DNA from: Oceanospirillaceae bacterium
GTDB lineage: Bacteria; Pseudomonadota; Gammaproteobacteria; Pseudomonadales; Oceanobacteraceae
NCBI GenBank assembly: GCA_002724925.1
Contig: PBQA01000030.1
Span: forward strand, 1-64,000
Length of the DNA stretch: 64,000 nucleotides
Reading direction: 5' to 3'
Program-made: the position numbers and the translations under genes
Notes under the pieces: model-generated
Databases searched by the model: none
Seen by the model: the letters and a program-made list of their open reading frames with translations, nothing else
Told to the model about the DNA's origin: nothing
Part shown: in pieces, positions 1 to 33,677 of the stretch
How the letters are laid out: each line of letters opens with the position of its first letter
Position numbering within the stretch: position 1 is the stretch's first letter

Positions 1-369
<369 letters not shown>

Positions 370-7797: not shown

Positions 7798-9030
7798 TCA
7801 GGACTCAAACGTCGCCAATGGCTGAGGGCGTGACAATAAATATCCCTGTCCGAATCCGATAGAGAGCGTCTGCAGCTCAGCTAATTCAGCCTCTGTTTCG
7901 ATCCCCTCGGCGACAACCTTATACCCTTGCACCTCGGCAAACCCTCTCAGCGCAGCGACCAGAGATTGCTTATCTCTGTCTTGATCAATATCGCGGATCA
8001 GGCTCATATCCAGCTTCAACATATCCGGGCTGAGCAAAAGAATGTGACGCATACTCGCATATCCTGCACCAGCATCGTCAATGGCCAGACGCATCCCCGC
8101 ATCACGCAGAGGCTTTAAGCGCGCATTGAGAACATCATAGTCAGGAATTTCTTCATGCTCAGTGAGCTCCAGAACAATACGCCTGGCTTCTTCCGGCGTA
8201 TAAATTCCAGAGATATCGCACTGTAAGAGGAAAGCAGGCGTGACGTTAATTGAAACATAGGCATTCGCTGGCAGCCTTGCTAACGCTTCCTTAGATTTCT
8301 CAACGACTCTCAAACCAATCGCAGACGACAAGCCAAGACGGTCTGCATCGATAAATAACTGAGCAGGTGACAGATCCAGGTCGGTTGACAGCCTTGCCAG
8401 AAGTTCAAACCCCTGCACTGAGCGGTCTGTAAGCGCACAGATGGGCTGAGCATGCAGAAGCAACTCATCACGTTCAAGGATATCAAGAATAACCTCCTGA
8501 CGCTGACGGTTTTCTTCACTGCCTTTTCGGGCGTCCTCAATCAAGGCTGCAATCACATCAGCGAAAACCCGCACCAGCATAAGACTGCGGTTGTTGAGTT
8601 TCGGTTTTACCTGACGACTGAAAATACAGAAGGTGCCAAACGTATGCCCATCAGAAAGCACCACAGGGACGCTAACATGAGACTTTACCGGGATAGTTGT
8701 GAACTCAGGTACTAAATCTGTCTCGCCGCTGGATTCGGTATCCGGAACCAATTGCTTCAGGCGGCCATCAGCGATCATTTCACAGAAACTATCTTTTAGT
8801 GGGCCACAGCTGTCCTCAGACACCAGGTTGGCATCACTGGCGCAGTCGACGAAACGGAATACGCGCTGATCCTGACTGAACTCGGACAAAAAACCCACAT
8901 CCATATCAAGCCGGTCCCGAACGGAACGTATCAGGCTGGAGATGGCTGTTTTTAGTGTTTCCGGGCTTTTGGGAGCAGGTTCATTGATCACCTCTGCGAG
9001 CTGTCTCGCGACATCCGGGCGCTTTTCCAT
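7798..9030 (-). CDS. GAF-EAL cyclic-di-GMP phosphodiesterase (probably active)
   Basis: A 410-residue soluble protein with an N-terminal GAF sensor domain (about residues 20-170, containing SHVSVPVVLSDGHTFGTFC) and a C-terminal EAL domain (about 180-405). All catalytic positions of the EAL family are recognisable: the glutamate of FELLARL, the asparagine of SINVTPAF, the glutamate of LELTEHEE, the aspartate pair of IDDAGAGYAS, the lysine of MLKLDMSLI, VAEGIET, and the glutamine of GFGQGYLLSRP. It should therefore hydrolyse c-di-GMP under control of a GAF ligand that cannot be read from sequence. A diverged paralogue lies 243 bp upstream on the same strand. Confidence 0.9.
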   Translation of the reverse strand: MEKRPDVARQLAEVINEPAPKSPETLKTAISSLIRSVRDRLDMDVGFLSEFSQDQRVFRFVDCASDANLVSEDSCGPLKDSFCEMIADGRLKQLVPDTESSGETDLVPEFTTIPVKSHVSVPVVLSDGHTFGTFCIFSRQVKPKLNNRSLMLVRVFADVIAALIEDARKGSEENRQRQEVILDILERDELLLHAQPICALTDRSVQGFELLARLSTDLDLSPAQLFIDADRLGLSSAIGLRVVEKSKEALARLPANAYVSINVTPAFLLQCDISGIYTPEEARRIVLELTEHEEIPDYDVLNARLKPLRDAGMRLAIDDAGAGYASMRHILLLSPDMLKLDMSLIRDIDQDRDKQSLVAALRGFAEVQGYKVVAEGIETEAELAELQTLSIGFGQGYLLSRPQPLATFES

Positions 9031-9273
9031 TCAGTAATACCTTCAAACTTTTCACCATGGAACTATAGCACTCTGTCGGAATTAAACATGTCTCACAAGG
9101 CAACTCTTGGCGGCATTTTCCACTCAGGTCAAATATAAGGCATTAGTGTGAAATATTCTTGCAGAGACGAAGCGGATTGTGTGGAAAATGCAGATAAATA
9201 TCGCAGTTACTGCACCAATACTCACCGGAAAGCTAACCAGAAAAGACAAAATACGCCATTTGAAAATATAATC

Positions 9274-10536
9274 TCAAATAGACGTACGGGTGCAAGCCCC
9301 AGGCAGAGAGCAACGGAACGAACGATCATACTGCCCAACCGATATTCCAGAGTGAAGGAGGTACTCCTCATCCCACTTATTCGAAATTCCGTCAGCTACT
9401 AACGTGCAACCCTGTGCCCTTGAAAAAATCAGCAACGCCTGCAACATGGCCTGCTGACCGCGGTCAGAAGCGATACCACAGGTGAGGCCAGCATCCAGCT
9501 TCACGAACTCAGGTTGCAGCTGCAATATATGTTGCATGGAGGCGAATCCGGCCCCGGCATTATCAATCGACAAGCGTATGCCAGATGTCCGTATAGGTTG
9601 AAGAATCCTCTTGAGATCATGATAACTCGAAACGCGATCGTGCTCTGATATCTCGAAAACGACACGCTTGCACATGTCTTTATTCAACCACTCCAGAAAA
9701 TCGAACTCTGCCAGAAGCTGCGGCGTAATATTTATCGCTACGAAATGTTCATCAGGTGTTGTCGATAATGTTGAAATCACCCGCTCGATTAAATTAACAC
9801 CGATTAAATTCGCCAGACCTAAGCGAATCACCTCATGCATTAGCAGCACAGGGCTTGCGATAGTCTCAGTCGCTTGAGTCAGTGTGGGCATCAATTCGAC
9901 GCCCAACTGCTTGCCTGTGTTTAAATTAATCAACGCCGCAGGCGCATATTTCAACCTGCCCTCTGTCAGTAGTTCCGTTACTTCGATTTTCTTCTTCGCA
10001 CAATAATGTGACTCGTACTGAGGCAGAGCACTCACCTCTTCGATCAATGCCGATGCCACATCCGCAAATACACGACACATAGCCAGACTTCGATGATTGA
10101 GCTCAGGGATGGCATAACGACTGAAGACACAAAAGGTCCCAAAAACAGTGCCATCAGAAAATACAATCGGAACGCTGATATGAGCCCCAACAGGCACCAG
10201 TTTCACAGCGGTGAGATCATTGGCACCGGCAACCGTTTGAGCATTTGCGATCAACTGCGAAGCCCGGCCATCGACAACGCGCTGGCACAGACTTTCACCC
10301 CGGTACTCTGATCCGCCAGACTGGACAATGTTGACCCCGGGCGCCGAGTCAACCAAGTAAAAAGTGCGCATATCACCATCAAAACGGGATATGAACCCAA
10401 CCTCCATCCTCAGCTTCGTGCGGGCAGCATAAAGCAAGCCCAGCAAGGTTTGCTCTAGCGGCTTGTGCCCTGCCAGCACAGCGACAGGGTCGAAGGCCAA
10501 AGCCAGCTGGTCGAGAGCATCGGAATAATCAGACAT
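9274..10536 (-). CDS. GAF-EAL protein with degenerate catalytic site
   Basis: This 420-residue paralogue of the preceding gene keeps the GAF core (AHISVPIVFSDGTVFGTFC) and much of the EAL fold, but key positions have changed. The paired aspartates IDDAG have become IDNAG, the VAEGIET motif has become VADGISN, and the C-terminal GQGY-L-SRP stretch is replaced by an unrelated tail (GQYDRSFRCSLPG) that could come from a frameshift. The signature E, the N of AINITPQLL, the E of EISEHD and the K of FVKLD remain. It is likely to bind c-di-GMP or a partner protein without hydrolysis, as other degenerate EAL proteins do. Expression would depend on its own promoter, not seen. Confidence 0.85.
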   Translation of the reverse strand: MSDYSDALDQLALAFDPVAVLAGHKPLEQTLLGLLYAARTKLRMEVGFISRFDGDMRTFYLVDSAPGVNIVQSGGSEYRGESLCQRVVDGRASQLIANAQTVAGANDLTAVKLVPVGAHISVPIVFSDGTVFGTFCVFSRYAIPELNHRSLAMCRVFADVASALIEEVSALPQYESHYCAKKKIEVTELLTEGRLKYAPAALINLNTGKQLGVELMPTLTQATETIASPVLLMHEVIRLGLANLIGVNLIERVISTLSTTPDEHFVAINITPQLLAEFDFLEWLNKDMCKRVVFEISEHDRVSSYHDLKRILQPIRTSGIRLSIDNAGAGFASMQHILQLQPEFVKLDAGLTCGIASDRGQQAMLQALLIFSRAQGCTLVADGISNKWDEEYLLHSGISVGQYDRSFRCSLPGACTRTSI

Positions 10537-10625
10537 ACAAAAGGCCCGAAAGGAAAACCCCTACAGTATATGCCGGAATTCCGAAATGTGTTTCCGCGCT
10601 GCCTAAGACCTTTTACCAATACACG

Positions 10626-11087
10626 CTACAGCCAACGTCTCACCCGTTGCGAGTAATCAAGGTACTCCTGCCCGAAGAGCTTCTGCAGTGCACGCTCTTC
10701 AGGGATGATCTGAAAGCGAGTGATGTATCCCACAAATAACACGGGGCCAACAAATGCCAGCGGGGTTTGTAGCCAAACAGCGAGTGCAGTCAGCAGAAGA
10801 GCCATCCCCAGATACATCGGATTACGGGTGAATCGATAAACCCCGCCTGTGACCAACGCTGATGCGTTTTCGATTTTTACTGGGTTGATTGTGGTCTTAC
10901 TGCGGATAAACGAGAGAAGTCCACCGGAATCCAGAAACAGCCCCAACAATACAAGCAGCCCAGTGATAGCCTGCGCGGTGAATCCCCACCAATTGATTGC
11001 CACAGTCTGTGTACTGATTCCCCACATGAGTAACCCACAAAGCGCACCAACCACAGGTGGCGGTATTTTATGTTCTAACCAGCTCAT
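10626..11087 (-). CDS. Membrane methyltransferase of the isoprenylcysteine/phospholipid methyltransferase type
   Basis: A 153-residue protein with about four hydrophobic segments and the signature of the ICMT/PEMT fold near its C-terminus: GGVYRFTRNPMYLGM, followed by PEERALQKLFGQEYLDY. These bind S-adenosylmethionine in characterised relatives. The bacterial members are mostly of unknown substrate, possibly lipids or small thiols. It stands alone between the GAF-EAL gene and the fba terminator. Confidence 0.8.
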   Translation of the reverse strand: MSWLEHKIPPPVVGALCGLLMWGISTQTVAINWWGFTAQAITGLLVLLGLFLDSGGLLSFIRSKTTINPVKIENASALVTGGVYRFTRNPMYLGMALLLTALAVWLQTPLAFVGPVLFVGYITRFQIIPEERALQKLFGQEYLDYSQRVRRWL

Positions 11088-11135
11088 ATCATTCCTTCTC
11101 AGTTATATTTAGATAATGCAGGAATAACAGACAAG

Positions 11136-11160
11136 AAAAAAGGCGCCGAAGCGCCTTTTT
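11136..11160 (-). terminator. Rho-independent terminator of fba
   Basis: The stem GGCGC-TTCG-GCGCC is flanked by A and T runs on both sides, so it can work in either direction. It sits 22 bp after the fba stop and upstream of the methyltransferase gene. Confidence 0.9.
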
Positions 11161-11182
11161 AACTACCAGCAAGATCGACAGA

Positions 11183-12247
11183 TCAGCTGATTTTTGGATC
11201 AAGAGCACCGCTCTGGTACTTCTCGAACATATCGTCGAGAGAGATCGCTTTGATCTTAGAGGCGTTGCCCGCCGTACCGAACGCTTCATAACGAGCGATA
11301 CAAATATCCTTCATCGCAGTGACAGACTCTTTGAAGTACTTACGCGGATCAAACTCAGCTGGGTTCGCTGCCAGGAAGCGACGAATCGCACCGGTAGATG
11401 CCAGACGCAAGTCAGTATCGATGTTTACTTTGCGCACGCCGTACTTGATGCCCTCAACGATCTGCTCAACCGGCACACCGTAAGTTTCAGGGATTTCACC
11501 ACCGAACTCGTTGATGATTGCCAGCCACTCCTGAGGTACAGAAGACGAACCGTGCATTACCAGGTGAGTATCCGGGATACGCTTATGGATCTCTTTGATA
11601 CGGTCGATGGCAAGAATGTCGTCTGTAGGCGGACGAGTAAACTTGTACGCGCCATGTGAGGTACCACAAGCAATCGCCAGGGCATCTACCTGAGTCTTGC
11701 GCACGAAGTCAGCCGCTTCTTCAGGGTCGGTCAACATCTGATCGTGAGACAGGGTGCCTTCTGCACCAATACCGTCTTCTTCACCCGCCTGACCGGTTTC
11801 AAGAGAACCCAGACAACCCAACTCACCTTCTACCGACACACCACAGGCGTGCGCCATTTCAACGGTGCGACGAGTCACATCAACGTTGTACTCATAGTCG
11901 GTCGGGGTTTTGCCGTCTTCGCCCAGAGAGCCATCCATCATCACCGAACTGAAGCCAAGCTGGATAGAACGCTGACATACCGCCGGAGACGTACCGTGAT
12001 CCTGGTGCATGCACACCGGGATATGCGGAAATTCTTCGATGGCAGCCAGAATCAGGTGACGCAGAAACGGCGCACCCGCGTACTTACGAGCACCTGCAGA
12101 AGCCTGCACGATCACAGGAGAATCCGTTTTGTCTGCCGCTTCCATGATGGCGCGCATCTGTTCGAGGTTGTTTACGTTGAACGCTGGTACGCCGTAGCCG
12201 AACTCGGCTGCGTGGTCCAGCATCTGACGCATGCTGATCAATGCCAT
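11183..12247 (-). CDS. fba: Fructose-bisphosphate aldolase, class II
   Basis: A 354-residue class II, Zn-dependent aldolase that cleaves fructose-1,6-bisphosphate in glycolysis and makes it in gluconeogenesis. The zinc and catalytic motifs are visible: [25 protein letters not shown], and [12 protein letters not shown]. The length and motifs point to the CbbA-like subgroup (Calvin-cycle type), used for central metabolism in pseudomonads and relatives. It is separated from upstream pgk by the small lipoprotein gene and a terminator at 12366-12392, so it is probably transcribed partly from its own promoter. Confidence 0.95.
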
Positions 12248-24022: not shown

Positions 24023-24733
24023 ATGAGCACAATCCACTTTATCGGTGGCGAAAAAGGCGGTGTCGGTAAATCCGTATTTTCCCGTCTGCTGTCGCAGTAC
24101 TTTCTTGATCACAACATGCACTACGCAGGTTTCGATGCCGACCAGTCACACGACACCCTGACCCGCTTTTACCCTGAGTTCACTCAACCTGTAAACCTGG
24201 ATAAGTTCGAAAGTGCCGATCGTATTATTGAGACGGCACTGGAGAACGACGTTAATGTTGTTGTTGACCTGCCCGCTCAGAGTGAGCGTTTTCTGAAGCG
24301 CTGGATGGAAGACAACGATGTCAGCGCTCTGTGTGAAGAAACCGGTGTGAAGTGCTACTTCTGGTACGTGGTCGATGATGGTATGGACTCAGCGCGACTG
24401 GCTGCGGCTTTCCTTGATCGCTATCAGGATGAGCTGCCGTGTGTATTGGTGAAGAACTATGGCCGTGGTGGCGATTTCAGTAGCCTTGAGAAGACAATCG
24501 CTGACGCGGGAATTACCCCCAAAGCATCCATCGCCATTAATGAGCTGCACGATGGCACCATGCGAAAAATCGACAAGCTATCCCTCAACTTCTGGGCCGC
24601 TGGCAACCTGACTGAGCGCGCAGAAGGCACTCTCTCACTGATGGAGCGTCAGCGCACCCGCGTTTGGTGTAAAAAGTCGTACGCGGAAATTGAAAAAGGG
24701 CTACAGACCCAGGCAAGTAGCGTACTGGCCTGA
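24023..24733 (+). CDS. ParA/MinD-fold P-loop ATPase resembling plasmid TraL/MobD mobilisation proteins
   Basis: A 236-residue ATPase with the deviant Walker A motif FIGGEKGGVGKSVFSRLL at its N-terminus and DADQSHDT as the switch I region. VVVDLPAQSER stands in the Walker B position. The overall layout, including the C-terminal TERAEGTLSLMERQRTRVW, resembles TraL/MobD proteins of conjugative plasmids more than chromosomal MinD or ParA. No ParB, relaxase or transfer gene is nearby. AGGGA precedes the ATG at 24023; the frame is open from 23999. The cellular role is unknown. Confidence 0.75.
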   Translation: MSTIHFIGGEKGGVGKSVFSRLLSQYFLDHNMHYAGFDADQSHDTLTRFYPEFTQPVNLDKFESADRIIETALENDVNVVVDLPAQSERFLKRWMEDNDVSALCEETGVKCYFWYVVDDGMDSARLAAAFLDRYQDELPCVLVKNYGRGGDFSSLEKTIADAGITPKASIAINELHDGTMRKIDKLSLNFWAAGNLTERAEGTLSLMERQRTRVWCKKSYAEIEKGLQTQASSVLA

Positions 24734-24792
24734 GGGTTTCCTGATTCGCCAAACCAATCAAGTCGATTGAGTGAGCAAGAAATCACCCAAAT

Positions 24793-24820
24793 AAAAAAGG
24801 GCGCTGAGCGCCCTTTTTTA
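24793..24820 (+). terminator. Bidirectional terminator between the ParA-like and PepSY genes
   Basis: GGGCGC-TGA-GCGCCC flanked by A6 and T6, between two convergent genes, so it can serve both. Confidence 0.92.
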
Positions 24821-24842
24821 TTTCTACCATGACCGCGTGTTC

Positions 24843-25382
24843 TTAAAGCACTGCGGCCAGAATAACAAAGACCAGGATACCCGCTGCTGTCAGACCGATA
24901 GTAGGTTTCTTCAGCAGAGGGGATTTCAGACCAATGATCAGACCCGAAATCAGAATCAGGATCAGACCTAAAGCTGTGATCTGCTCAAGAATACGGAACA
25001 AGCCGGGGCCATGGCCTTTGTGAAGCTCCATAAGCGAGGCCACAAGGTCGGGCGAGACCGGCGTAATATTCATGCCATCAGCTGTCGGCTCCAGCTCAAA
25101 GTAATCGCGACTAGTAGGGCGGGTCTGCATCAACCTGCCACGATCTTTGACATATTCGAAATCGGTATCCAGTCCCGCCTGTTGAAGTATTTCCTTAACC
25201 TGCGACTCTTTTTCCTGATCAGCATCAATCTGAACCGCGGGCACAAATATCGTCTCGCCCTTTTCAAAAGACCCTTTGATGCCTGAAAGATAGAGGCCAC
25301 CAGATACCGCCATTATCAACATAATGGGAGCAAAAAAAGCTGCCAGGTAAAGGTGAATTGTTACAAGTGTTTTACGTGACAT
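24843..25382 (-). CDS. PepSY-associated membrane protein
   Basis: A 179-residue protein with one N-terminal hydrophobic helix (about residues 12-33), a periplasmic part with a PepSY-like region (about 50-125) and two C-terminal helices. It begins RKTLVTIHLYLAAFFAPIML, the histidine-containing first helix typical of PepSY-TM proteins, and has MELHKGHGP ahead of the last helices. Larger relatives act with iron-siderophore uptake or as reductases; this is a short form. GCGGAG precedes the ATG. Confidence 0.7.
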   Translation of the reverse strand: MSRKTLVTIHLYLAAFFAPIMLIMAVSGGLYLSGIKGSFEKGETIFVPAVQIDADQEKESQVKEILQQAGLDTDFEYVKDRGRLMQTRPTSRDYFELEPTADGMNITPVSPDLVASLMELHKGHGPGLFRILEQITALGLILILISGLIIGLKSPLLKKPTIGLTAAGILVFVILAAVL

Positions 25383-25466
25383 TGTGTGCTCCGCAAGATG
25401 TGAATCAGACGCTTACTATACTGCCGTCTACGATCGCAGTGTGTAAAGAAGCGTCCCTGAGTTGCG

Positions 25467-26330
25467 TTAGATCAAGTTCTGAGAAAGGACTCTCAAACCA
25501 TCCTCCTTACCCATCTCATACGCTTCATCCAGCACCTGCATATCCGTCGTGAACTGACCTGCAGAAAATGATTCTGGAGGGCATAACTCAATCACCTCAC
25601 AGTCAGCTGGAGGGTTACGGATGAAGTCGAGCGCCTCATTGTATTCAAGGTGACGACGCTGAAGCCGCTTGGCCACCGCGGGATACTGTCGGAGAATGTA
25701 CGGAAACAGATGTCTGAAGCGATATGCCTGCTTCCGATACGACGCGGGGTTAGAACGAATCACCATAATTTTCCGCGCACCGCGACGATACGCCTCTTTT
25801 ACGGGTAACGAATCAGCAACACCGCCATCCAGCCAGGTCCGCCCTCGGAAAGGAACAGACCCCTTAAACGCGATAGGCATCGCAGCAGAGCATTTGATTG
25901 CCTGAAATAACTCATCACGCTCAGGCGCTATATACTCGGCCTTTCCTGTTTCAGCGTCGGTAACAACAGCCAGGAAACGCCCTTTACGTTTATCGATCTC
26001 ATCCAAACCAATATCCAACTCGCGTTCGGTAATATCCCAGAGCCATTCGATATCAATCAGGTGCCCTCCTCGCAGGAAGCGTCTCAGGCTTTTAAATTCG
26101 GGCCGGCGGCAGTAGTCCGTGATTACTTTGTAATTACGACCATATTGCTTACCGATATACGCCGCAGTATTTGAAGCGCCTGCTGACACACCAAAGTACC
26201 AGTCGAACGGGTAATAATCGGCTCTTATAAACTCATCCAGAACGCCTGCACTATAAATACCCCGCATGGCGCCACCTTCGACGATCAGGGCAGATTTCAC
26301 CTTCGTATTGTCAGTCATCGGAATAACCAT
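25467..26330 (-). CDS. Patatin-like phospholipase (YjjU-type)
   Basis: A 287-residue patatin with the oxyanion motif EGGAMRGIYSAGVL, the serine nucleophile in GVSAGAS and the catalytic aspartate in LDGGVAD, so the Ser-Asp dyad is intact. It should hydrolyse acyl esters of lipids. Its start overlaps the end of the thioesterase gene by 20 bp (or 8 bp if the second ATG at 26318 is used); neither start has a clear ribosome site, which suggests translational coupling. There is no signal peptide, so a cytoplasmic or inner-membrane-facing role is likely. Confidence 0.88.
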   Translation of the reverse strand: MVIPMTDNTKVKSALIVEGGAMRGIYSAGVLDEFIRADYYPFDWYFGVSAGASNTAAYIGKQYGRNYKVITDYCRRPEFKSLRRFLRGGHLIDIEWLWDITERELDIGLDEIDKRKGRFLAVVTDAETGKAEYIAPERDELFQAIKCSAAMPIAFKGSVPFRGRTWLDGGVADSLPVKEAYRRGARKIMVIRSNPASYRKQAYRFRHLFPYILRQYPAVAKRLQRRHLEYNEALDFIRNPPADCEVIELCPPESFSAGQFTTDMQVLDEAYEMGKEDGLRVLSQNLI

Positions 26331-26826
26331 GCCCGTAGTTATGAGATGAAGAAAAGGTGCAGGTCATAGCATCAAGGTCGTCCTCACCGACAAGACCAAG
26401 GTTCAGAAACTGCTCTTTCTCGAGCATGGCAAATTCGGATGATGAGGTAGCGAGTAGTTCTCCCTGGTCATCGTGAAGCTCACCGACCAGCAGATATTTC
26501 CGGCGATTTTTCTGCTCTTTGATCCATCCCGTCGCGACCACGGTCTGGTCAACAAACACTGGTTTCCGGAAAGTCACACTAAGATCGCGGGTCAGTGGAT
26601 ATTTATTCGTAAAATACATACTGGCCCACCCCATGACCTCATCCAGAATGGTTGAGGTAACACCGCCATGCGCCAGTTTTGCCCACCCACGAAGATGCTC
26701 CGGAATCGTCACAGTGGTTCTGACTTTTTCGCCATCCGTTTCGAAATTCATATTCAGACCGTGAGGGTTTTCTGTACCACAGCCAAAACAGCGGTGATCC
26801 GCTTTACTGATAGGTTGCCAGGGCAT
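26311..26826 (-). CDS. Hotdog-fold acyl-CoA thioesterase (PaaI-like)
   Basis: A 171-residue hotdog protein. HRCFGCGTENPHGLNM is the typical N-terminal segment of this subfamily and KLAHGGVTSTILDEVMGWA is the active-site region with the conserved HGG and the acidic residue on the helix. It probably cleaves acyl-CoA esters. I start it at the ATG at 26826 with AAGAGAG upstream; the longer frame to 26865 has no ribosome site. It is coupled to the patatin gene, giving a small acyl-ester-hydrolysing pair. Confidence 0.8.
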   Translation of the reverse strand: MPWQPISKADHRCFGCGTENPHGLNMNFETDGEKVRTTVTIPEHLRGWAKLAHGGVTSTILDEVMGWASMYFTNKYPLTRDLSVTFRKPVFVDQTVVATGWIKEQKNRRKYLLVGELHDDQGELLATSSSEFAMLEKEQFLNLGLVGEDDLDAMTCTFSSSHNYGHGYSDD

Positions 26827-26925
26827 GATGCGCTCTCTTACCAGGGAATAATAATCAGGCAGCATTATGCAAAGTCAGGCGAGGTTTGTCCCGGTCTGGC
26901 CGTAATAGGCCAGCCGTTTATGTGC

Positions 26926-26955
26926 ATCAGTGTGTTCCAGGTCTCACACACTGAT
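26926..26955. other. Strong hairpin after alr, without a T run
   Basis: ATCAGTGTGT-N10-ACACACTGAT forms a perfect 10-bp stem 13 bp beyond the alr stop. A second small stem CTGGCC-N6-GGCCAG follows at 26896-26913. Neither has a T run on the minus strand, so they may stabilise the alr 3' end or act with other factors. Confidence 0.5.
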
Positions 26956-26967
26956 ACTCGATGAGGT

Positions 26968-28038
26968 TTACTGCAGATTAATGCGCGGCACCCGCTGCGT
27001 CAGGCGACAGTACAATTCATAACTGATAGTACCCGCAAGGCGCGCGACTTCATCAATATCGACCAGCTCGCCCCAGAGCTCGACTGGCGAGCCGATACGA
27101 GCCTCCGGTACATCTGTAATATCGACAGTAATCATATCCATGGATACCCGGCCAACCAGCTGGCAAAGTTTACCTGCGACGTTCACGGGCGTGCCAGTCG
27201 GCGCATGACGCGGATAGCCGTCACCATAGCCAATCGCAACGACGCCGATACGGCTATTGCGGGGGGCTGCCCAGGTACAACCATAGCCAACTGTGTCCCC
27301 GGCTTTCACGTCGTGCACACTGATCAAGGCGGACTGTAAGGTCATAACGGGCTTCAGGCCGGCATCCCGGGCGGTAATATCTTCACAGGGAGAACTGCCA
27401 TAGAGCATGATCCCAGGTCGCATTACCTTTTCTCCTGTAACGCCACCGCGAATAACGGATGCACTGTTGCTGAGGCTCAGAGAGACAGGCCAGGCATGAT
27501 CTGTCATGCGTCGCTTCTGCTCTTCGTAGAATGAGGTATCGGCTTCATCTGACGTCGCAAAGTGGCTCATAACATGCCGGAGAATCAGGCCGCGATCATT
27601 GCGGATCCGGGCGATCATCTCTGGCGCATCCTCCAGCTTCACGCCCAGGCGGTTCATTCCACTACTGACCTTAAGCCAAACCGCCACTTCGTCCGACAGC
27701 TCAGCTGCGGCGCGATCTTTCAGTTGTTGAGGATGATGTACCACAAGTTGAATATGATGCTCTGACGCCTGCTCCCACTCTTCGGCATCGTAAGCGCCTT
27801 CGAGAACAAGAATTGGCTGTCGAATGCCCGCGCCCCGTAATTTCAGAGCTTCATCGACGCACGCAACGGCAAAACCGTCTGCTTCACCACTCAGTGCATT
27901 CGCACATGCCACCATGCCATGGCCGTAGCCATCAGACTTGATGACAGCGTATACCTCATGGGATGTCACTTCTCTGGCTTTGCGATAATTGTGACGCAGA
28001 TTTGACCATTTCAGCAGGGCACGTGTCGGACGGGTCAT
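26968..28038 (-). CDS. alr: Alanine racemase
   Basis: A 356-residue PLP enzyme that interconverts L- and D-alanine for peptidoglycan. The PLP lysine is in YAVIKSDGYGHG at the N-terminus and the second catalytic tyrosine is in VGYGCTW. The stretch VAIGYGDGYPRH is also typical. I use the ATG at 28038 (MTRPTRALLKW), which fits the family; upstream in-frame codons are open to 28149. It keeps the common gammaproteobacterial position after dnaB, but seven genes now lie between them. Confidence 0.95.
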   Translation of the reverse strand: MTRPTRALLKWSNLRHNYRKAREVTSHEVYAVIKSDGYGHGMVACANALSGEADGFAVACVDEALKLRGAGIRQPILVLEGAYDAEEWEQASEHHIQLVVHHPQQLKDRAAAELSDEVAVWLKVSSGMNRLGVKLEDAPEMIARIRNDRGLILRHVMSHFATSDEADTSFYEEQKRRMTDHAWPVSLSLSNSASVIRGGVTGEKVMRPGIMLYGSSPCEDITARDAGLKPVMTLQSALISVHDVKAGDTVGYGCTWAAPRNSRIGVVAIGYGDGYPRHAPTGTPVNVAGKLCQLVGRVSMDMITVDITDVPEARIGSPVELWGELVDIDEVARLAGTISYELYCRLTQRVPRINLQ

Positions 28039-28147
28039 AGGCGTATGAAGATTCCTGAAAATCAGTACAATGTTGTGTTCTGCCCGGTGCGAACACCGGG
28101 AAGCTTGTGTCATTATGTCAGCCTTACTTACACCCCGGAAGTCGTTC

Positions 28148-29326
28148 ATGCCCGTTCACCCGCTAATCAGCGATCATGCCATCAGTCTCTCTGCGACACT
28201 CGCGGCAACGATCGGGCTAGAAGAAGCCATTCTGTTATCGGTTCTGAACGATGCCGCACGGCTGCAGACCCAGCCTCAGGCACGCCTGAACAGCGATACG
28301 CTGAGACGACAGGTGCCCTTCTGGGATGACAACACCATAGTGCGGGTGATGGACTCTCTGACTGCCAAAGGGCTTCTGCAACTTCATGGCCCTGCATTTA
28401 CTCAGGCAGCAGGCATCGTCTTCAGCTTTGGCAATGCGCCAGTGCCTCAGGAGCACCCGGAACGCGCGAAAGCGCCTGTGCAGCAAGCTGTGCCCGCTCC
28501 TCAACCCGCGCAGGCCAAACCTCAACCGGCCCGTCCTGCACCTATGCCTGAGCAATGGCAGCCGTCTGAAGAGGCTATGCAACGACTGGAGCAGCATGGT
28601 ATCCCCCGTGCATTCTCCTTCTCGCAGCTTGATGCCTTTGTACTGCAAGGGCAGGAACAGGGCTCAAACCGTAATGACTGGAATACTCGCTTCTTCCGCT
28701 TCATAAAGAACCAGTGGGTATACGCTCAGAATGACGCTGGTCGCTTCCGTCGTCAGCAGGAGCGCACCGGCTTTCAGCCAACTCAGGAAGAAGCCCAGCC
28801 CATTACCGGAGACTGGCAACCGAGTAGCGATGCATTGCAGATCTTGCAGCGCGCGGGTATCGACCCTCAGTTTATTGAAGATGCCGTACCCGAGTTTGTT
28901 CTCTACTGGCAGGAGCGCGGCGACGTATTCAAAACCTGGAACAGCAAATTTATTCAGCACGTACGCCAGCAATGGGCGCGCTACACCGCCGCCGTTGAAC
29001 ATTCACCGATGCCCACCCGCATCGAGAGTAATTGGCAGCCTGCGGAAGACTGCTACGATATTCTGAGCATGGGCCATATTCCCAGAGATTTCGCCAGCGC
29101 ACTCGTTGCTGAGTTTGTTTTATACTGGCGGGATTCGAATCAGGTACACAACAGTTGGAACAGCCGCTTCTTACAATACGTGAAGCAGCAATGGGCGAAG
29201 CGACACGCTCAATCCTCCGGCAATCCAACAGGAGCCAACAATGGACAGCAAGCAGGTACTCAACCGGGTTACTCAACAGCTGAAGCAAGCGTCAGCCGAC
29301 TCAGTGACACCAGCTGGGCAAAATAA
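28148..29326 (+). CDS. DnaT-like primosomal protein with three C-terminal DNA-binding repeats
   Basis: A 392-residue protein. Residues 1-90 look like a winged-helix domain (SDTLRRQVPFWDDNTIVRVM). A proline/glutamine/alanine-rich linker covers about 100-135. Three copies of the DnaT C-terminal domain begin at about W137, W223 and W296, each starting WQPS/A and ending with an N-W-N/NSW-NS/TRF segment and a K/RQQW tail. In E. coli DnaT has one such domain and helps load DnaB at PriA-marked forks. GGAAG precedes the ATG at 28148. The gene overlaps the next by 86 bp. The function as restart or loader factor is inferred from domain and from position near dnaB. Confidence 0.8.
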   Translation: MPVHPLISDHAISLSATLAATIGLEEAILLSVLNDAARLQTQPQARLNSDTLRRQVPFWDDNTIVRVMDSLTAKGLLQLHGPAFTQAAGIVFSFGNAPVPQEHPERAKAPVQQAVPAPQPAQAKPQPARPAPMPEQWQPSEEAMQRLEQHGIPRAFSFSQLDAFVLQGQEQGSNRNDWNTRFFRFIKNQWVYAQNDAGRFRRQQERTGFQPTQEEAQPITGDWQPSSDALQILQRAGIDPQFIEDAVPEFVLYWQERGDVFKTWNSKFIQHVRQQWARYTAAVEHSPMPTRIESNWQPAEDCYDILSMGHIPRDFASALVAEFVLYWRDSNQVHNSWNSRFLQYVKQQWAKRHAQSSGNPTGANNGQQAGTQPGYSTAEASVSRLSDTSWAK

Positions 29327-29888
29327 CGCGCCAAGCGACGACCAGCTGTCTGCCATCAATCAGATTTTTGAGTTATTCCGGTTCAATTATCACAACCAGT
29401 TTTTAAAAGCGTTTCCCGACCTCGACACCATGAACATGGCGAAACGCCTGTGGTTACGACTACTCGGTGACTATAGCGGTGAAGTCATCATGCGCGCCGC
29501 CGAAAAAGCCGTAAAAGAGAATAGCTGGCTCCCAAACGTTCACGAAGTACTGGCACGCTGTGATATTTCTGAAGTGCTGGGCCTGCCATCGCCACATGCA
29601 GCCTACGTAGAAGCCTGCCGGGCGCCATCGCCAAAAAAAGAATTTAACTGGAGTCATCCTGCCGTGTATTTTGCAGGCCGCTCAACCGACTGGTTTTTTA
29701 TCGCCAATGAACCAGAAGAAAAAGTATTTCCAGTGTTCAAGCGTAACTATGATCTTCTACTGAATCGTATTCAGAACGGTGAAAATCTGGAGATAGACAT
29801 TCCACGCGGTCTCCCTGAAGAAACTACGACGCCTTTATCACGGGATGAGCAAAAAGATCGCTTGAAAAACCTGATGGCAGACCTCTGA
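29241..29888 (+). CDS. Lambda-P-like replication protein, candidate DnaB helicase loader
   Basis: A 215-residue protein that resembles phage lambda replication protein P. Shared-looking parts are the segment QIFELFRFNYHNQFLKAF, the helical RLWLRLLGDYSGEVIMRAAE followed by SWLPNVHEVLARCD, and the later HPAVYFAGRSTDWFF. Lambda P binds and loads DnaB at a phage origin. CAGGAG stands 7 nt before the ATG, which supports this start despite an 86-bp overlap with the DnaT-like gene. No other phage genes are present, so it looks like a domesticated loader. The resemblance is read by eye and would need a profile search to confirm. Confidence 0.65.
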   Translation: MDSKQVLNRVTQQLKQASADSVTPAGQNNAPSDDQLSAINQIFELFRFNYHNQFLKAFPDLDTMNMAKRLWLRLLGDYSGEVIMRAAEKAVKENSWLPNVHEVLARCDISEVLGLPSPHAAYVEACRAPSPKKEFNWSHPAVYFAGRSTDWFFIANEPEEKVFPVFKRNYDLLLNRIQNGENLEIDIPRGLPEETTTPLSRDEQKDRLKNLMADL

Positions 29889-29889
29889 A

Positions 29890-30084
29890 ATGCTACTCGA
29901 CGAACACGGCATCCACTGCCCTTATTGTGGTGAATATCAGACAGTTTTTATCGACCCCAGCGACGTCGATGAGGAAAGCTATATTCAGGACTGCCAAGTC
30001 TGCTGCCGGCCGATCACCTTTCATCTGACCGAAGGGTTTGATGGCAGCGTGTCGCTGACGGTCTCTCACGAAAATGATTCGTGA
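29890..30084 (+). CDS. CPXCG-motif cysteine-rich small protein
   Basis: A 64-residue protein with two cysteine pairs (HCPYCGEYQ and DCQVCCRP), the layout of the CPXCG cysteine-rich family, which probably binds one metal ion. The first codon is 1 bp beyond the stop of the lambda-P-like gene, so it is likely part of the same transcript, which ends at the terminator at 30157. The function is unknown. Confidence 0.8.
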   Translation: MLLDEHGIHCPYCGEYQTVFIDPSDVDEESYIQDCQVCCRPITFHLTEGFDGSVSLTVSHENDS

Positions 30085-30156
30085 GTTTACTGCCAATTTC
30101 GCCCACCAAAATACTATTTTATCGATCAACGAGAACAACAAAAATCCGCATTAAAT

Positions 30157-30184
30157 AAAAAAGGCCGCATCTGCGGCCTTTTTG
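30157..30184 (+). terminator. Bidirectional terminator after the DnaT-like operon
   Basis: AAAAAAGGCCGC-ATCT-GCGGCCTTTTT between convergent genes. It can end both the plus-strand dnaT-like operon and the minus-strand dnaB-GNAT message. Confidence 0.93.
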
Positions 30185-30205
30185 ATTCTAGTAGCGAGCA
30201 TGAAA

Positions 30206-30745
30206 TTAGATATTCAGCTCACCTTTAAGCAAAGAGTATACATCGAGGTCAATATCTTCACCTTCAAACTCCATTTGAGATGGTAGAGTTCCTTCGTGTG
30301 AAAAGCCTAACGCTGTAAGTAGCTTGCTCTGATCATCACTCCCTGTTCTCAAGCGCATTTCTAAACGGTGGAGATGCAGATCGTCTGACAGGTAGTTCAC
30401 GATAACAGGAAGTACTTCCTGCAGTTCTTCAAGGCCACACTCTGCCGACAGCTCCCACTGTAACTGAGCATTCAGCATCATCCAGTTTATGTACTGAACG
30501 CCAATACGCGCAACAACCTCACCGTCAGACTTGCGCTCAATCAACCAGAATGCCGCTTCACGTGTCTCAAAGCGCATAGCGATTCTGCGTAGCTCATCAA
30601 GTGCCTGAGCCTCTACCGTCATTGGCAGGCGCGGGATATGAGCAGCAGCAGAACTCTGGCTCAGCAGCTTAAACAGTGCTGCTCCGTCCTGATCAGAAAC
30701 CGGCAGGCGGATCAGGAATTGTTCAGTTTCGAAGTTCCAGCTCAT
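30206..30745 (-). CDS. GNAT-family acetyltransferase-like protein (first of a pair)
   Basis: A 179-residue protein with the general layout of RimJ/RimL-type GNATs: TEQFLIRLPVSDQDGAALF at the N-terminus and a C-terminal LHRLEMRLRTGSDDQSKLLTALGFSHEGTL segment, which is the strand-helix after the acetyl-CoA site. The usual acetyl-CoA binding loop is weak. Its ATG overlaps the stop of the next upstream GNAT (TGATG), so the two are translationally coupled. Substrate unknown. Confidence 0.6.
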   Translation of the reverse strand: MSWNFETEQFLIRLPVSDQDGAALFKLLSQSSAAAHIPRLPMTVEAQALDELRRIAMRFETREAAFWLIERKSDGEVVARIGVQYINWMMLNAQLQWELSAECGLEELQEVLPVIVNYLSDDLHLHRLEMRLRTGSDDQSKLLTALGFSHEGTLPSQMEFEGEDIDLDVYSLLKGELNI

Positions 30746-31347
30746 CAGGACTCCCCTCTTTTATTCGCATTGAGGTTCTGGCCCAATTCGTCATCGTCAC
30801 CCAGTTTTCGAGGCACCGGCTTATTCTCGCTCGAGATCCAATGATATTGCTCAACATCTGAAAACTCGGTATTCCCTGTGCGCCAGCCGTCGCGCAAGCG
30901 CGCAGCCAGCGTAAAGCCACACTCCGAGAGCGCCGCTTTAATATCGTCAGACTGACCTTCAATCCATTGGTAAGCGAAGTTACGTACATGGTACTTGGTA
31001 CTGAGAAAACTGATCGCAGCTTTTAACGACGCAGTACGTTCTTCCACCGTCAGCTGCGGCAAGCCATCAACACGCATAACGATTCGCAAATTCGAAGGCT
31101 GCCAGTCAAATCCACTGACCATGCCTTTGATCTGCCCTTCTGTTTCAATCGCCCACATCATTCCACGCTGTGTGGCGGCCATCTGAACACTGTAATCGAT
31201 CATTCGATTCAGTTGTTCTTTATCCTGCAGTGGACGCTGCCCAGGAATTTCAGGATGCTTATACAGTTCGAATAAGCCGTCTATGTCGTCGTAGTGAAGC
31301 GGTTTGATACAACCGCCGGGGATCTCCAGCTCGGGAGTAAATTTCAT
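30745..31347 (-). CDS. GNAT-family acetyltransferase-like protein (second of a pair)
   Basis: A 200-residue GNAT-like protein, with HYDDIDGLFELYKHPEIPG at the start, and VRNFAYQWIEGQSDDIKAALSECGFTLAARLRDGWR near the end, as in RimJ-type enzymes. It is 38 bp downstream of dnaB on the same strand and followed directly by the second GNAT. Proximity to rpsF, rpsR and rplI makes acetylation of a ribosomal protein possible, but nothing in the sequence decides this. Confidence 0.65.
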   Translation of the reverse strand: MKFTPELEIPGGCIKPLHYDDIDGLFELYKHPEIPGQRPLQDKEQLNRMIDYSVQMAATQRGMMWAIETEGQIKGMVSGFDWQPSNLRIVMRVDGLPQLTVEERTASLKAAISFLSTKYHVRNFAYQWIEGQSDDIKAALSECGFTLAARLRDGWRTGNTEFSDVEQYHWISSENKPVPRKLGDDDELGQNLNANKRGES

Positions 31348-31385
31348 GGAAACTACCTACTGATGAAGACTATGAAAGTGACGGG

Positions 31386-32774
31386 TTAATACTCGTCATC
31401 TCCGTCATAGCCATGAGCAAGATTTTCAAATCGGGTGTATTTACCGATAAACGCAAGACGGTCGATACCAATCGGACCATTACGGTGCTTACCGGTAATA
31501 ATTTCAGCAATGCCTTTATCGGGTGAGTCTTCGTTATAGACCTCATCACGATAAATAAACTGAATAATATCGGCGTCCTGCTCGATCGCACCGGATTCAC
31601 GCAAGTCAGAGTTCACCGGGCGCTTGTTCGGACGCTGCTCCAGTGATCGGTTAAGCTGCGACAGAGCAATCATTGGGCAGTTAAATTCTTTAGCGATGAT
31701 CTTCAGCGTCCGCGAAATTTCAGAAATTTCCTGGGTACGCCCCTCAGAAGGCCCAGACACCCGCATCAACTGAAGGTAGTCGACCATGATCATGGCCAGA
31801 TCATTATTGTTCTCTCGATACACTTTGCGCGCCCGCGCTCGCATTTCCTGCGGTGTAAGTGCTGCGGTGTCATCGATATAAAGCGGCAGATCTTTCAGCA
31901 TGTTGACCGCGGCTGAAAGCTTGGGCCAATCTTCATCAATCAGCTTGCCCGAGCGGATACGGGTCTGATCGATTTTTCCGATCGACGACAGCATACGCAT
32001 CACGATCGATTCTGACGGCATCTCAAGACTGAATACCAGGCACGGACGCTTAGTAGCCAACAGGGCATTTTCCACCAGATTCATAGCGTAGGTGGTTTTA
32101 CCCATCGAAGGACGTGCCGCCACAATCACCAGGTCGGCTTTCTGGAAGCCTGATGTCCGGTTGTCGATCTCGGTAAAGCCGGTTGTCAGCCCCGTCAGCC
32201 CTTCAGGCTGGTTGAACATCTGATCCAGCTGCTCAAGGGTATTCTTAAGAATAGGAGCGACCAACTCAGGGCCACCGTCTTTACGGTTACCCTCTGCGAT
32301 CGTGGCAATCGATTTCTCAGCGTCTGAGATCAATGTGAGCGCATCATCACCACCCGGCTCATAGGCTTTTTCGATGATGTCACTGGCGGCTTCAATCAGG
32401 CTGCGCTGTTGTGAGCGCTCGGCAACAATGGTCGCATACGCAGCGCAGTTATCGATCGACGGGGTCATATCGACGAGCCGACTCAGGTATGACGCACCAC
32501 CCGCCTTCTCAAGCTGCCCACGCTCTTCAAGCTCTTCAGCGACCGTGACAACGTCAATGGGTTGTTCCTGAGCAACCAGGTGCTGAATAGCCCGGAAGAT
32601 GATGCGATGGTCATGACGGTAGTAGTCAGTATCCAGTAGGGTCTCTGAGACGGTCTCCCAGGCGCGCTCGTCCAGCATCAGTGAACCAAGGACTGATTGC
32701 TCAGCTTCAACTGAATGGGGTGGCATGCGGCTACTGCCGACGCTGTCTGTATCCTGTCCGAATTCTTCGTTCAT
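31386..32774 (-). CDS. dnaB: Replicative DNA helicase DnaB
   Basis: A 462-residue hexameric helicase with an N-terminal domain (about 1-130, including PPHSVEAEQSVLGSLMLD) and a RecA-type motor domain (Walker A ARPSMGKTT, then FSLEMPSESIVMRM, and MVDYLQLMR as Walker B). No intein interrupts it. The ATG at 32774 (MNEEFG) has a GAAG site; the longer open frame from 32837 would run through the rplI terminator and is unlikely. It follows rplI as in many bacteria. A terminator lies in its leader only 10 nt before the start codon. Confidence 0.96.
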   Translation of the reverse strand: MNEEFGQDTDSVGSSRMPPHSVEAEQSVLGSLMLDERAWETVSETLLDTDYYRHDHRIIFRAIQHLVAQEQPIDVVTVAEELEERGQLEKAGGASYLSRLVDMTPSIDNCAAYATIVAERSQQRSLIEAASDIIEKAYEPGGDDALTLISDAEKSIATIAEGNRKDGGPELVAPILKNTLEQLDQMFNQPEGLTGLTTGFTEIDNRTSGFQKADLVIVAARPSMGKTTYAMNLVENALLATKRPCLVFSLEMPSESIVMRMLSSIGKIDQTRIRSGKLIDEDWPKLSAAVNMLKDLPLYIDDTAALTPQEMRARARKVYRENNNDLAMIMVDYLQLMRVSGPSEGRTQEISEISRTLKIIAKEFNCPMIALSQLNRSLEQRPNKRPVNSDLRESGAIEQDADIIQFIYRDEVYNEDSPDKGIAEIITGKHRNGPIGIDRLAFIGKYTRFENLAHGYDGDDEY

Positions 32775-32783
32775 ATCTTCAAT

Positions 32784-32825
32784 GCAAAAAATAAAGGCAC
32801 TATCAGTGGGAACCAATAGTGCCTT
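32784..32825 (-). terminator. Terminator/attenuator between rplI and dnaB
   Basis: On the minus strand AAGGCACTAT-N12-ATAGTGCC(TT) is followed by TTTATTTTTT, ending 10 nt before the dnaB start. A second perfect stem GCCGCAATGA-TGGC-TCATTGCGGC (32831-32854) stands just upstream. It may reduce dnaB expression relative to the ribosomal genes. Confidence 0.8.
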
Positions 32826-32871
32826 AATCTGCCGCAATGAGCCATCATTGCGGCGTCTGCGCGGTAATTAC

Positions 32872-33318
32872 TTATTCAGCAACTACGTGCAGTTTCAGTA
32901 CTGCTTCGACTTCTGGGTGCAGACGGATAGTGATGTCGTATTCACCCACCTGACGTACTGGGCCTTCTGGCAGCAGTACTTCAGATTTAGCCAGCTCAAC
33001 GCCAGCTGCAGTCGCGAGGTCAGCAATGTCACGGTTGCCCAGTGAACCAAACAGCTTACCTTCGTCGCCTGCTTTAACAGCAGCAGACAGTTCGATTTCG
33101 TCGATTCTTTCAGCGCGAGCCTGAGCAGCAGCCAGCTTATCAGCAGCCTGAGCTTCCAGTTCAGCGCGACGGGTTTCGAACTGTTCAACGTTTGCTTTAG
33201 TCGCAGGAACCGCTTTGCCCTGTGGGAACAGGAAGTTACGTGCGTAACCCGGACGAACAGTTACCTGATCACCCAGTGAACCCAGGTTTGCGATTTTTTC
33301 CAGCAGAATGATTTGCAT
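32872..33318 (-). CDS. rplI: 50S ribosomal protein L9
   Basis: A 148-residue L9 with the characteristic start [19 protein letters not shown] and [15 protein letters not shown] in the 23S-binding N-domain, a central helix rich in A, E and R, and a C-domain. It is the last ribosomal gene of the rpsF-rpsR-rplI group and is followed by two hairpins before dnaB. Confidence 0.98.
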
Positions 33319-33446
33319 GATAATTCCTCATTACAGGGTAACTTGCTTAGTGAATTAAGAAGCCACCGTGTCTTTTTGTCTCCCGACATACATCATTGGA
33401 TGCCGGGCTACGAAAATTAGTAATGATACAGTGTTAACCGTATCTC

Positions 33447-33677
33447 TTATTTGTCGTGCTGATCAGTGTATGGCAGCAGAGCAATGTAGCGCGCACGCTT
33501 GATTGCTGTAGACAGCTGACGCTGATACTTAGCGCGGGTACCGGTGATACGGCTTGGTACGATTTTGCCAGTTTCAGTAACGTAGCCTTTCAGAGTGTCC
33601 AGATCTTTGTAATCAATCTCGGTCACACCTTCAGCGGTGAAACGGCAGAACTTACGACGACGGAAAAAACGAGCCAT
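33447..33677 (-). CDS. rpsR: 30S ribosomal protein S18
   Basis: A 76-residue S18, with [10 protein letters not shown] and [15 protein letters not shown]. It follows rpsF by only 14 bp, so priB, which stands between the two in E. coli, is absent. A 128-bp gap to rplI carries a possible 8-bp stem but no T run. Confidence 0.98.

Follow-up and report, generated by a model that had tools for sequence, protein, structure and literature searches.

How is the replicative helicase DnaB loaded in a bacterium in whose genome none of the usual loader genes is found? The question is raised by two overlapping genes in a 64,000-nucleotide stretch of DNA (hereafter the window: positions 1 to 64,000, forward strand, of contig PBQA01000030.1, assembly GCA_002724925.1) from an Oceanospirillaceae bacterium. 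The upstream gene encodes a protein with three DnaT domains and the downstream gene a relative of the lambda P helicase loader. Very probably the two are members of the DopC/DopE system already published, so the idea itself is not new, and the proteins are referred to here as DopC and DopE. We consider it probable that they form the resident DnaB-loading pair of this organism and that they derive from O and P, the replication genes of a lambdoid phage. The first-pass annotation of this DNA had proposed that a captured phage-type loader, coupled to a multi-domain DnaT, had become the resident system; that proposal is supported by profile matches, by the joint presence of the two proteins in 70 of the 115 genomes sampled from the order and by the exclusion of DciA, from which we infer helicase loading itself. 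No cell can do without helicase loading, a task for which bacteria employ unrelated proteins; the pair would represent a further, phage-derived solution, present in 28 families of the sample analysed below.

Brézellec and colleagues are said to have introduced the names in 2017 (Genome Biol Evol 9:1561), dopC after lambda O and dopE after lambda P, for a domesticated lambda O/P pair in bacteria that lack dciA and dnaC/dnaI. The pair in the window resembles that system in being a resident O-like and P-like pair in genomes without dciA, with DnaC checked in the window's own genome. Excerpts of PMC5109545 (Brézellec et al. 2016) state that neither dciA nor dnaC/I occurs in the Cellvibrionales, in three species of Oceanospirillales or in most Thiotrichales, and pose the helicase operator of the Cellvibrionales as a question. 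Named relatives of the pair (Cellvibrio and Zhongshania; Thalassolituus) fall in orders named in those excerpts. The nearest named relatives of DopE are from an 'Oleibacter marinus' metagenome-assembled genome (95%) and Thalassolituus maritimus (94%), which points to a Thalassolituus-like marine gammaproteobacterium as the host; NCBI taxonomy places Thalassolituus under Oceanospirillales. DopE is also named as a loader family in an excerpt of PMC13326638.

Families and folds of DopC and DopE

Pfam matched DopC at three DnaT stretches (PF17948; 220.8 bits against a cut-off of 25, E 1.2e-66). DopE was matched by Phage_lambda_P (PF06992; 35.9 bits, cut-off 26, E 8e-9), by Inhibitor_G39P (22.8 bits, cut-off 22) and, in PHROGs, by phrog_109, 'P-like helicase loader' (E 3.7e-20); no NCBIfam model matched either protein. 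The arrangement read from the sequence at first pass, a three-DnaT-domain protein whose gene overlaps a lambda P-like gene, is thereby confirmed, and the similarity to DnaT and to replication protein P is real, both profiles scoring above their cut-offs. A genome-wide search with PF06992 listed the prophage copy only (see below), so the match of the resident DopE is a modest one. A profile of 33 DopE relatives, searched against PDB chains, matched lambda P (8v9t) at 5.6e-6. The DopE model (predicted local distance difference test score, pLDDT, 77.6) had its best match, by Foldseek as well as by VIA, in 9oa1 (DnaB-lambda P; Foldseek 3.1e-4), with which it aligned by VIA over 190 residues (Z 9.8, root-mean-square deviation (rmsd) 9.0), the domains superposing loosely overall. 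It also aligned by VIA with SPP1 G39P (1no1) over 67 residues (Z 9.1, rmsd 1.8).

In the AlphaFold2 model of DopC (pLDDT 81.3), the best VIA rows for the N-terminal domain had Z scores of 8.4 (4pql, 'N-terminal domain of DNA binding protein') and 8.1 (4pt7, 'Structure of initiator'), each with 93 residues aligned at an rmsd of 6.2-6.3. These structural matches are weak, and the remaining VIA rows listed score Z 6.5-8. The helical bundle of the second repeat region matched E. coli DnaT (4ou6) over 63 residues (Z 8.0, rmsd 2.4). Such Z values are middling for folds this small, and the DnaT assignment is carried by the sequence evidence. The top match of DopC in a sequence search of the PDB, 5i8l (a lysozyme-named chain, 5.2e-6), was dismissed as chance, its single-domain scores being under 10 bits; DnaT chains came next, at 0.024 and worse.

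According to excerpts of PMC4132743, E. coli DnaT contacts single-stranded DNA (ssDNA) through F124, Y127, W128, K133, F135, K143, R146, S147, I150 and G151; binding is weakened by a single change at K133, K143, R146, Y127, W128 or F135, and the Y127A/W128A double change leaves almost none. These positions were aligned to the repeats (R1, R2 and R3) of 48 three-repeat DopC proteins. All 48 proteins have F at the F124 position in every repeat. At the Y127 position Y is found in 40, 43 and 28 of the 48 (R1, R2 and R3, respectively), with F in 5 R2 and 19 R3 repeats; W occupies the W128 position in 42, 48 and 48, and K or R the K143 position in 37, 45 and 42. In the window protein, R2 keeps the equivalents of F124, Y127, W128, F135 and K143 and does not keep those of K133, R146 and S147. 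R3 keeps F124, Y127 and W128 and has R for K143, with K133, F135, R146 and S147 not kept. R1 carries Q and G at the positions of Y127 and W128, the aromatic pair being lost in this genus, and the earlier description of a triple DNA-binding repeat is therefore not safe for this protein. Across the family, the base-stacking face of the repeats is better preserved than the backbone contacts.

The C-terminus of DopC was examined with the pattern [DN]x[STDNG]W within the last 40 residues. It is present in 69 of 70 resident DopC proteins of the order (50/50 with multiple repeats, 9/10 short and 10/10 long proteins with one repeat), compared with 19 of the 1082 other open reading frames (ORFs) at these loci. 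Phage O-like ORFs located upstream of P have it in 25 of their 33 distinct C-termini. Among six extra, prophage-type DnaT copies, one has the pattern at its end and four have an EGW variant. Lambda O recruits P, which makes the DopC tail a candidate O-P contact; the C-terminus of lambda O reads TNTDWIYGVDL. The D-x-S-W-A tail would accordingly dock DopE, a contact kept after domestication. Gene order, overlap, the P family and the C-terminal tail motif are the features shared with the O-P genes of phage lambda and Pseudomonas phage PAJU2. Phage O proteins differ in having at most one DnaT domain by the profile used, and lambda O and PAJU2 O have none.

The pair and DciA across genomes

The distribution was surveyed in 115 genomes of the order, with DciA, DnaT and P counts taken from one profile or one query each. 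A P-like protein is present in 71 genomes and DciA in 35; one genome has both and ten have neither. DnaT domains occur in 70 genomes, the same as those with the P-like protein except G060, which is also the sole genome combining a P-like match (residues 62-172, 5e-11) with DciA and has no DnaT partner. When G060 is left out, 28 families carry the pair, 16 carry DciA and none is common to both (pair versus DciA, Fisher p 4e-19, uncorrected for kinship). DciA presumably performs the same task, as helicase operator for DnaB; it belongs to a different family, and the two distributions are as good as mutually exclusive. Some of the ten genomes without either loader are incomplete and some are not (G035 and G043 are at 100%), and a further, different loader could be present in these.

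The 70 resident pairs of the order fall into three architectures. Fifty have a multi-repeat DopC (48 with three repeats, one with four and one with two), and the one-repeat proteins comprise a short form (10 genomes, 143-178 residues) and a long form (10 genomes, 269-317 residues). Among the best 80 of 544 named relatives, three repeats are present in 76 and two in three others, in L163 owing to a frame break, and one contig lacks the gene. Three repeats, described at first pass as unusual, are instead the rule among the window's closest relatives. In three loci (L066, L176 and L180, the last from a Dasania), DopC has two repeats and about 200 residues, and the N-terminal winged-helix region was not found.

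The R2-R3 linker measures 12-15 residues in 48 of 48 three-repeat proteins. In 24 genomes, identity averages 52% for R2 versus R2 and for R3 versus R3, 34% for R1 versus R1 and 30-36% between unlike positions; R2 and R3 are therefore plainly old, R1 less clearly so. In a tree of the repeats (69 columns), R3 forms one group with a support of only 56, and R2 requires two changes and R1 eight. One old triplication of the DnaT repeat is likely, without being proved by these comparisons.

Outside the order, 8 of 274 genomes of the class have DnaT domains. Leaving out the window's own, four of these (G117, G144, G159 and G288) have two or three repeats and lack DciA, and the three with one repeat all have DciA. 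A P-like gene overlaps the DnaT gene in three of the four, that of G117 being short: this partner of a three-repeat DopC (L297:6985-7494) has 169 residues and lacks the otherwise near-invariant WSHPAVY region. The two-repeat DopC of G144 (L298:6324-7133) lacks the D-x-S-W-A tail, and its basic LRKKYKI end recalls, by eye, the ends of DopE proteins.

The window's own genome (3.97 Mb, 99.96% complete) was checked by profile for dciA, priB and dnaC, and none was found, PriB appearing below cut-off only. DciA (Pfam profile) and PriC gave no match in this genome. The two PriB matches below cut-off were an SSB-like ORF of a prophage, by eye, and a protein of 222 residues. Two IstB/DnaC-type AAA profile matches were recognised by eye as DnaA and Lon; the DnaA-type ORF adjoins a DnaN-like ORF. 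PriA is present. In the window itself 14 nucleotides separate the end of rpsF (33692) from the start of rpsR (33677), so there is no priB at the usual place, as had been noted at first pass.

Proposed mechanism and alternatives

The family and fold of DopE suggest that it would hold DnaB and open or stabilise the ring in the manner of lambda P. DopC would be the targeting partner, its DnaT domains binding ssDNA and its tail docking DopE. Because no other loader, no PriB and no PriC were found, we favour a role of the pair in both initiation at oriC and restart.

Comparison with E. coli is informative for the function of the repeats. According to excerpts of PMC13377028, the mature preprimosome contains four DnaT C-domains arranged as a filament on lagging-strand ssDNA, with two bases per junction, and this filament takes the DNA over from PriB. 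DopC and E. coli DnaT share the domain family, the fold and part of the ssDNA-contact residues, and in E. coli dnaT adjoins a helicase-loader gene, dnaC, as dopC adjoins dopE. E. coli DnaT, however, is a self-assembling, single-domain protein, whereas DopC has three domains in one chain together with a winged-helix-like N domain, and its partner is P-like rather than an AAA+ protein such as DnaC. With three domains, and with no PriB over cut-off, the window does not encode an E. coli-type DnaT working with PriB. The three DnaT domains are best viewed instead as a ready-made, single-chain stretch of an E. coli-type filament: one DopC would offer as many as three DnaT protomers and carry DopE-DnaB on its tail, and PriB would not be needed. 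This view accords with the number of repeats, the constant spacing of R2 and R3, the retention of the aromatic residues and of the tail, and the failure to find PriB. In its fullest form, DopC would be a single-chain DnaT filament that seeds without PriB, PriC or self-assembly, and its O-derived tail would hand over DopE-held DnaB, merging origin firing with fork restart; we offer this version tentatively and regard it as somewhat unlikely. If it were true, much of the sampled order, together with some gammaproteobacteria of small genome size, would rely on one merged loader. Tandem DnaT would be a fixed-length, single-gene form of the E. coli filament that can be trimmed by domain, and the number of DnaT protomers needed for DNA handover to the helicase would become directly testable.

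Several observations weigh against these proposals. Of the ten ssDNA-contact positions, four (F124, Y127, W128 and K143) are kept as a rule and six (K133, F135, R146, S147, I150 and G151) mostly are not: the K133 position is mostly acidic or Q, the F135 position mostly non-aromatic and the S147 position mostly H, and the R146 position is K or R in 25 of 48 R1 repeats but Q in 20 of 48 R2 and 45 of 48 R3 repeats. Since K133, F135 and R146 contribute to binding in E. coli and are mostly lost, whether and how DopC binds ssDNA is uncertain; ssDNA binding is likely, though not assured, and the lost backbone contacts make it doubtful that DopC simply reproduces the DnaT mode. In the window's genus R1 has in addition lost the aromatic pair. 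The DopC model has a low predicted template modelling score (pTM 0.35), gave no Foldseek match to the PDB under 0.001 and is disordered in the tail (pLDDT under 50); the D-x-S-W-A tail is absent from E. coli DnaT. A one-domain DopC in 20 of the 70 pair-bearing genomes indicates that the principle does not depend on having three domains. The families surveyed are kin, so that 28 versus 16 are not independent events; the absence of DciA was judged by one Pfam profile, and ten of 115 genomes have neither loader. Finally, in the 0.9-Mb genome G144 (L298, two repeats) no DopE was recognised by profile.

A narrower role would confine the pair to PriA-dependent restart, in the manner of DnaT, and leave initiation at oriC to an unrecognised loader. 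The DnaT nature of the repeats fits this, as do the presence of PriA and the failure to find PriB and PriC. It is nevertheless improbable in view of the lack of any other recognised loader in the genome, and because the pair is practically never found together with DciA, which an excerpt of PMC5109545 reports to be essential for initiation in P. aeruginosa. The family of the P-like partner, moreover, loads DnaB at a phage origin. Less probable still is that loading depends on a divergent DciA or AAA+ protein that escaped the profiles, which would make the pair an accessory, for example a regulator of DnaB. Two of the 35 DciA matches in the order lie below the curated cut-off, which puts the profile near its limit in places, and the ten genomes with neither loader would be accommodated; against this, the same profile finds DciA in 16 families of the order, whereas the 28 families that bear the pair give no match.

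The relation of the pair to phages was examined in both host and viral DNA. The window's own genome holds a second DnaT and P pair (contig C21, L123:7480-8956), flanked, by eye, by a CI-like repressor, a RecT-like protein, a methylase, SSB and a NinB-like ORF, a setting that reads as a lambdoid prophage; its O protein has an STDWADG stretch some 50 residues inside the C-terminus. This prophage pair is a natural contrast to the resident one, around which no phage genes were recognised by eye among the ORFs at 24500-33500. A prophage origin in place was rejected, given the absence of flanking phage genes, the wide distribution and the recurring chromosomal neighbours, and the joint occurrence of the two genes in 70 of the 115 genomes means that they are not confined to prophage remnants. 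Among 86 phage and viral loci, picked via the P gene and read 3 kb to either side, 11 have one DnaT domain and none has more by a profile that was trained on resident repeats and can miss distant phage DnaT domains. A scan of viral contigs with a single DopE query gave nothing, and 22 phage records carry P-like relatives. It is hardly credible that the pair represents a prophage remnant, or a phage module captured recently and serving no purpose in the host: its lambda O-P organisation, the P-like relatives in phage records and a viral P gene inside the multi-repeat group (L215) would fit, but the pair occurs in 28 families with recurring chromosomal neighbours, lies in a region without recognised phage genes, has more DnaT domains than any of the 86 viral loci and coexists with a separate lambdoid prophage pair.

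History and setting of the locus

A quick tree placed 48 multi-repeat rows together with the viral sequence L215 (Shimodaira-Hasegawa-like approximate likelihood ratio test, SH-aLRT, 97), with the short one-repeat group as sister (93) and the long one-repeat group (10 genomes) among phages (83). The first tree left out L100, L120 and L121, whose P genes are cut by contig ends or split, and the second left out seven further long rows. In approximately unbiased (AU) tests, a single resident clade was not rejected (p 0.355), and neither was a placement of L215 outside the multi-repeat rows (p 0.16). On these trees, one capture from phage and two captures are both possible. The L215 P-like protein (L215:2516-3552, viral contig IMGVR_UViG_3300003318_000003) falls within or beside the resident multi-repeat group; the ORF upstream of it, of 154 residues, has no DnaT domain and keeps a DCSWATG stretch. 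The loader has possibly been recaptured here by a phage.

Features of the window discussed in the text, by position
Feature	Position	Strand	Evidence
dopC-like gene, 392-aa protein	28148..29326	+	ORF, start ATG at 28148; PF17948 x3
N-terminal winged-helix-like domain of DopC, about residues 9-97	28172..28438	+	model secondary structure
DnaT repeat 1 (R1)	28541..28732	+	PF17948 E 4.2e-15
DnaT repeat 2 (R2)	28796..28993	+	PF17948 E 9.9e-29
DnaT repeat 3 (R3)	29018..29212	+	PF17948 E 2.2e-24
C-terminal D-T-S-W-A motif of DopC, residues 387-391	29306..29320	+	pattern search
Overlap of dopC and dopE, 86 nt, different frames; DopC tail and DopE N-terminus from the same DNA	29241..29326	+	
dopE-like gene, 215-aa lambda P-family protein	29241..29888	+	ORF; PF06992, phrog_109
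Cys_rich_CPXCG gene, 64 aa	29890-30084	+	PF14255, 3e-18
Two ORFs between the CPXCG gene side and dnaB	30206-31347	-	ORF list
dnaB	31386-32837	-	ORF list
alr	26968-28149	-	ORF list
Partial 16S rRNA gene at the window start	1-369	-	model positions 1-374

The ORF list bears out the earlier placement of both genes inside the dnaB-alr interval. The pair sits between alr and dnaB, both on the opposite strand, and is separated from dnaB by the CPXCG gene and two minus-strand ORFs. The mechanical ORF of dopC opens at 28070, and the protein is counted from the ATG. Shine-Dalgarno-like sequences, GGAAG and AGGAG, lie by eye six bases 5' of the dopC and dopE starts, respectively. The two genes overlap by at least 60 nucleotides in 44 of the 50 multi-repeat loci; these lengths are upper limits, being counted from the first in-frame start. 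The interval first assigned to the pair, 28148-30084, holds for the two genes themselves, but its extension to 30084 takes in the CPXCG gene, which does not belong to the unit. That gene was considered as a third component and dropped, since it lies directly 3' of the pair in 2 of 49 loci with at least three repeats, namely the window and its congener G104.

Counts of neighbouring genes are lower bounds, as contig ends cut many loci. In 35 of the 50 multi-repeat loci, from 18 families, the upstream neighbour on the opposite strand belongs to a RadA-like gene cluster; one member that was scanned contains a KaiC-type ATPase and a LapB zinc ribbon. The window is not among these 35 and has alr in that place. 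The short one-repeat group neighbours a methionyl-tRNA synthetase gene in 7 of 10 loci and an ApbC/Mrp-like gene in 8 of 10 (one member of each scanned). Of the 49 multi-repeat loci besides the window, 14 have dnaB inside the stretch that was fetched. In L056 the DnaB ORF (8654-11299, minus strand) encodes 881 residues, compared with 461-563 in the other 14 loci of its cluster, and an insertion such as an intein is possible.

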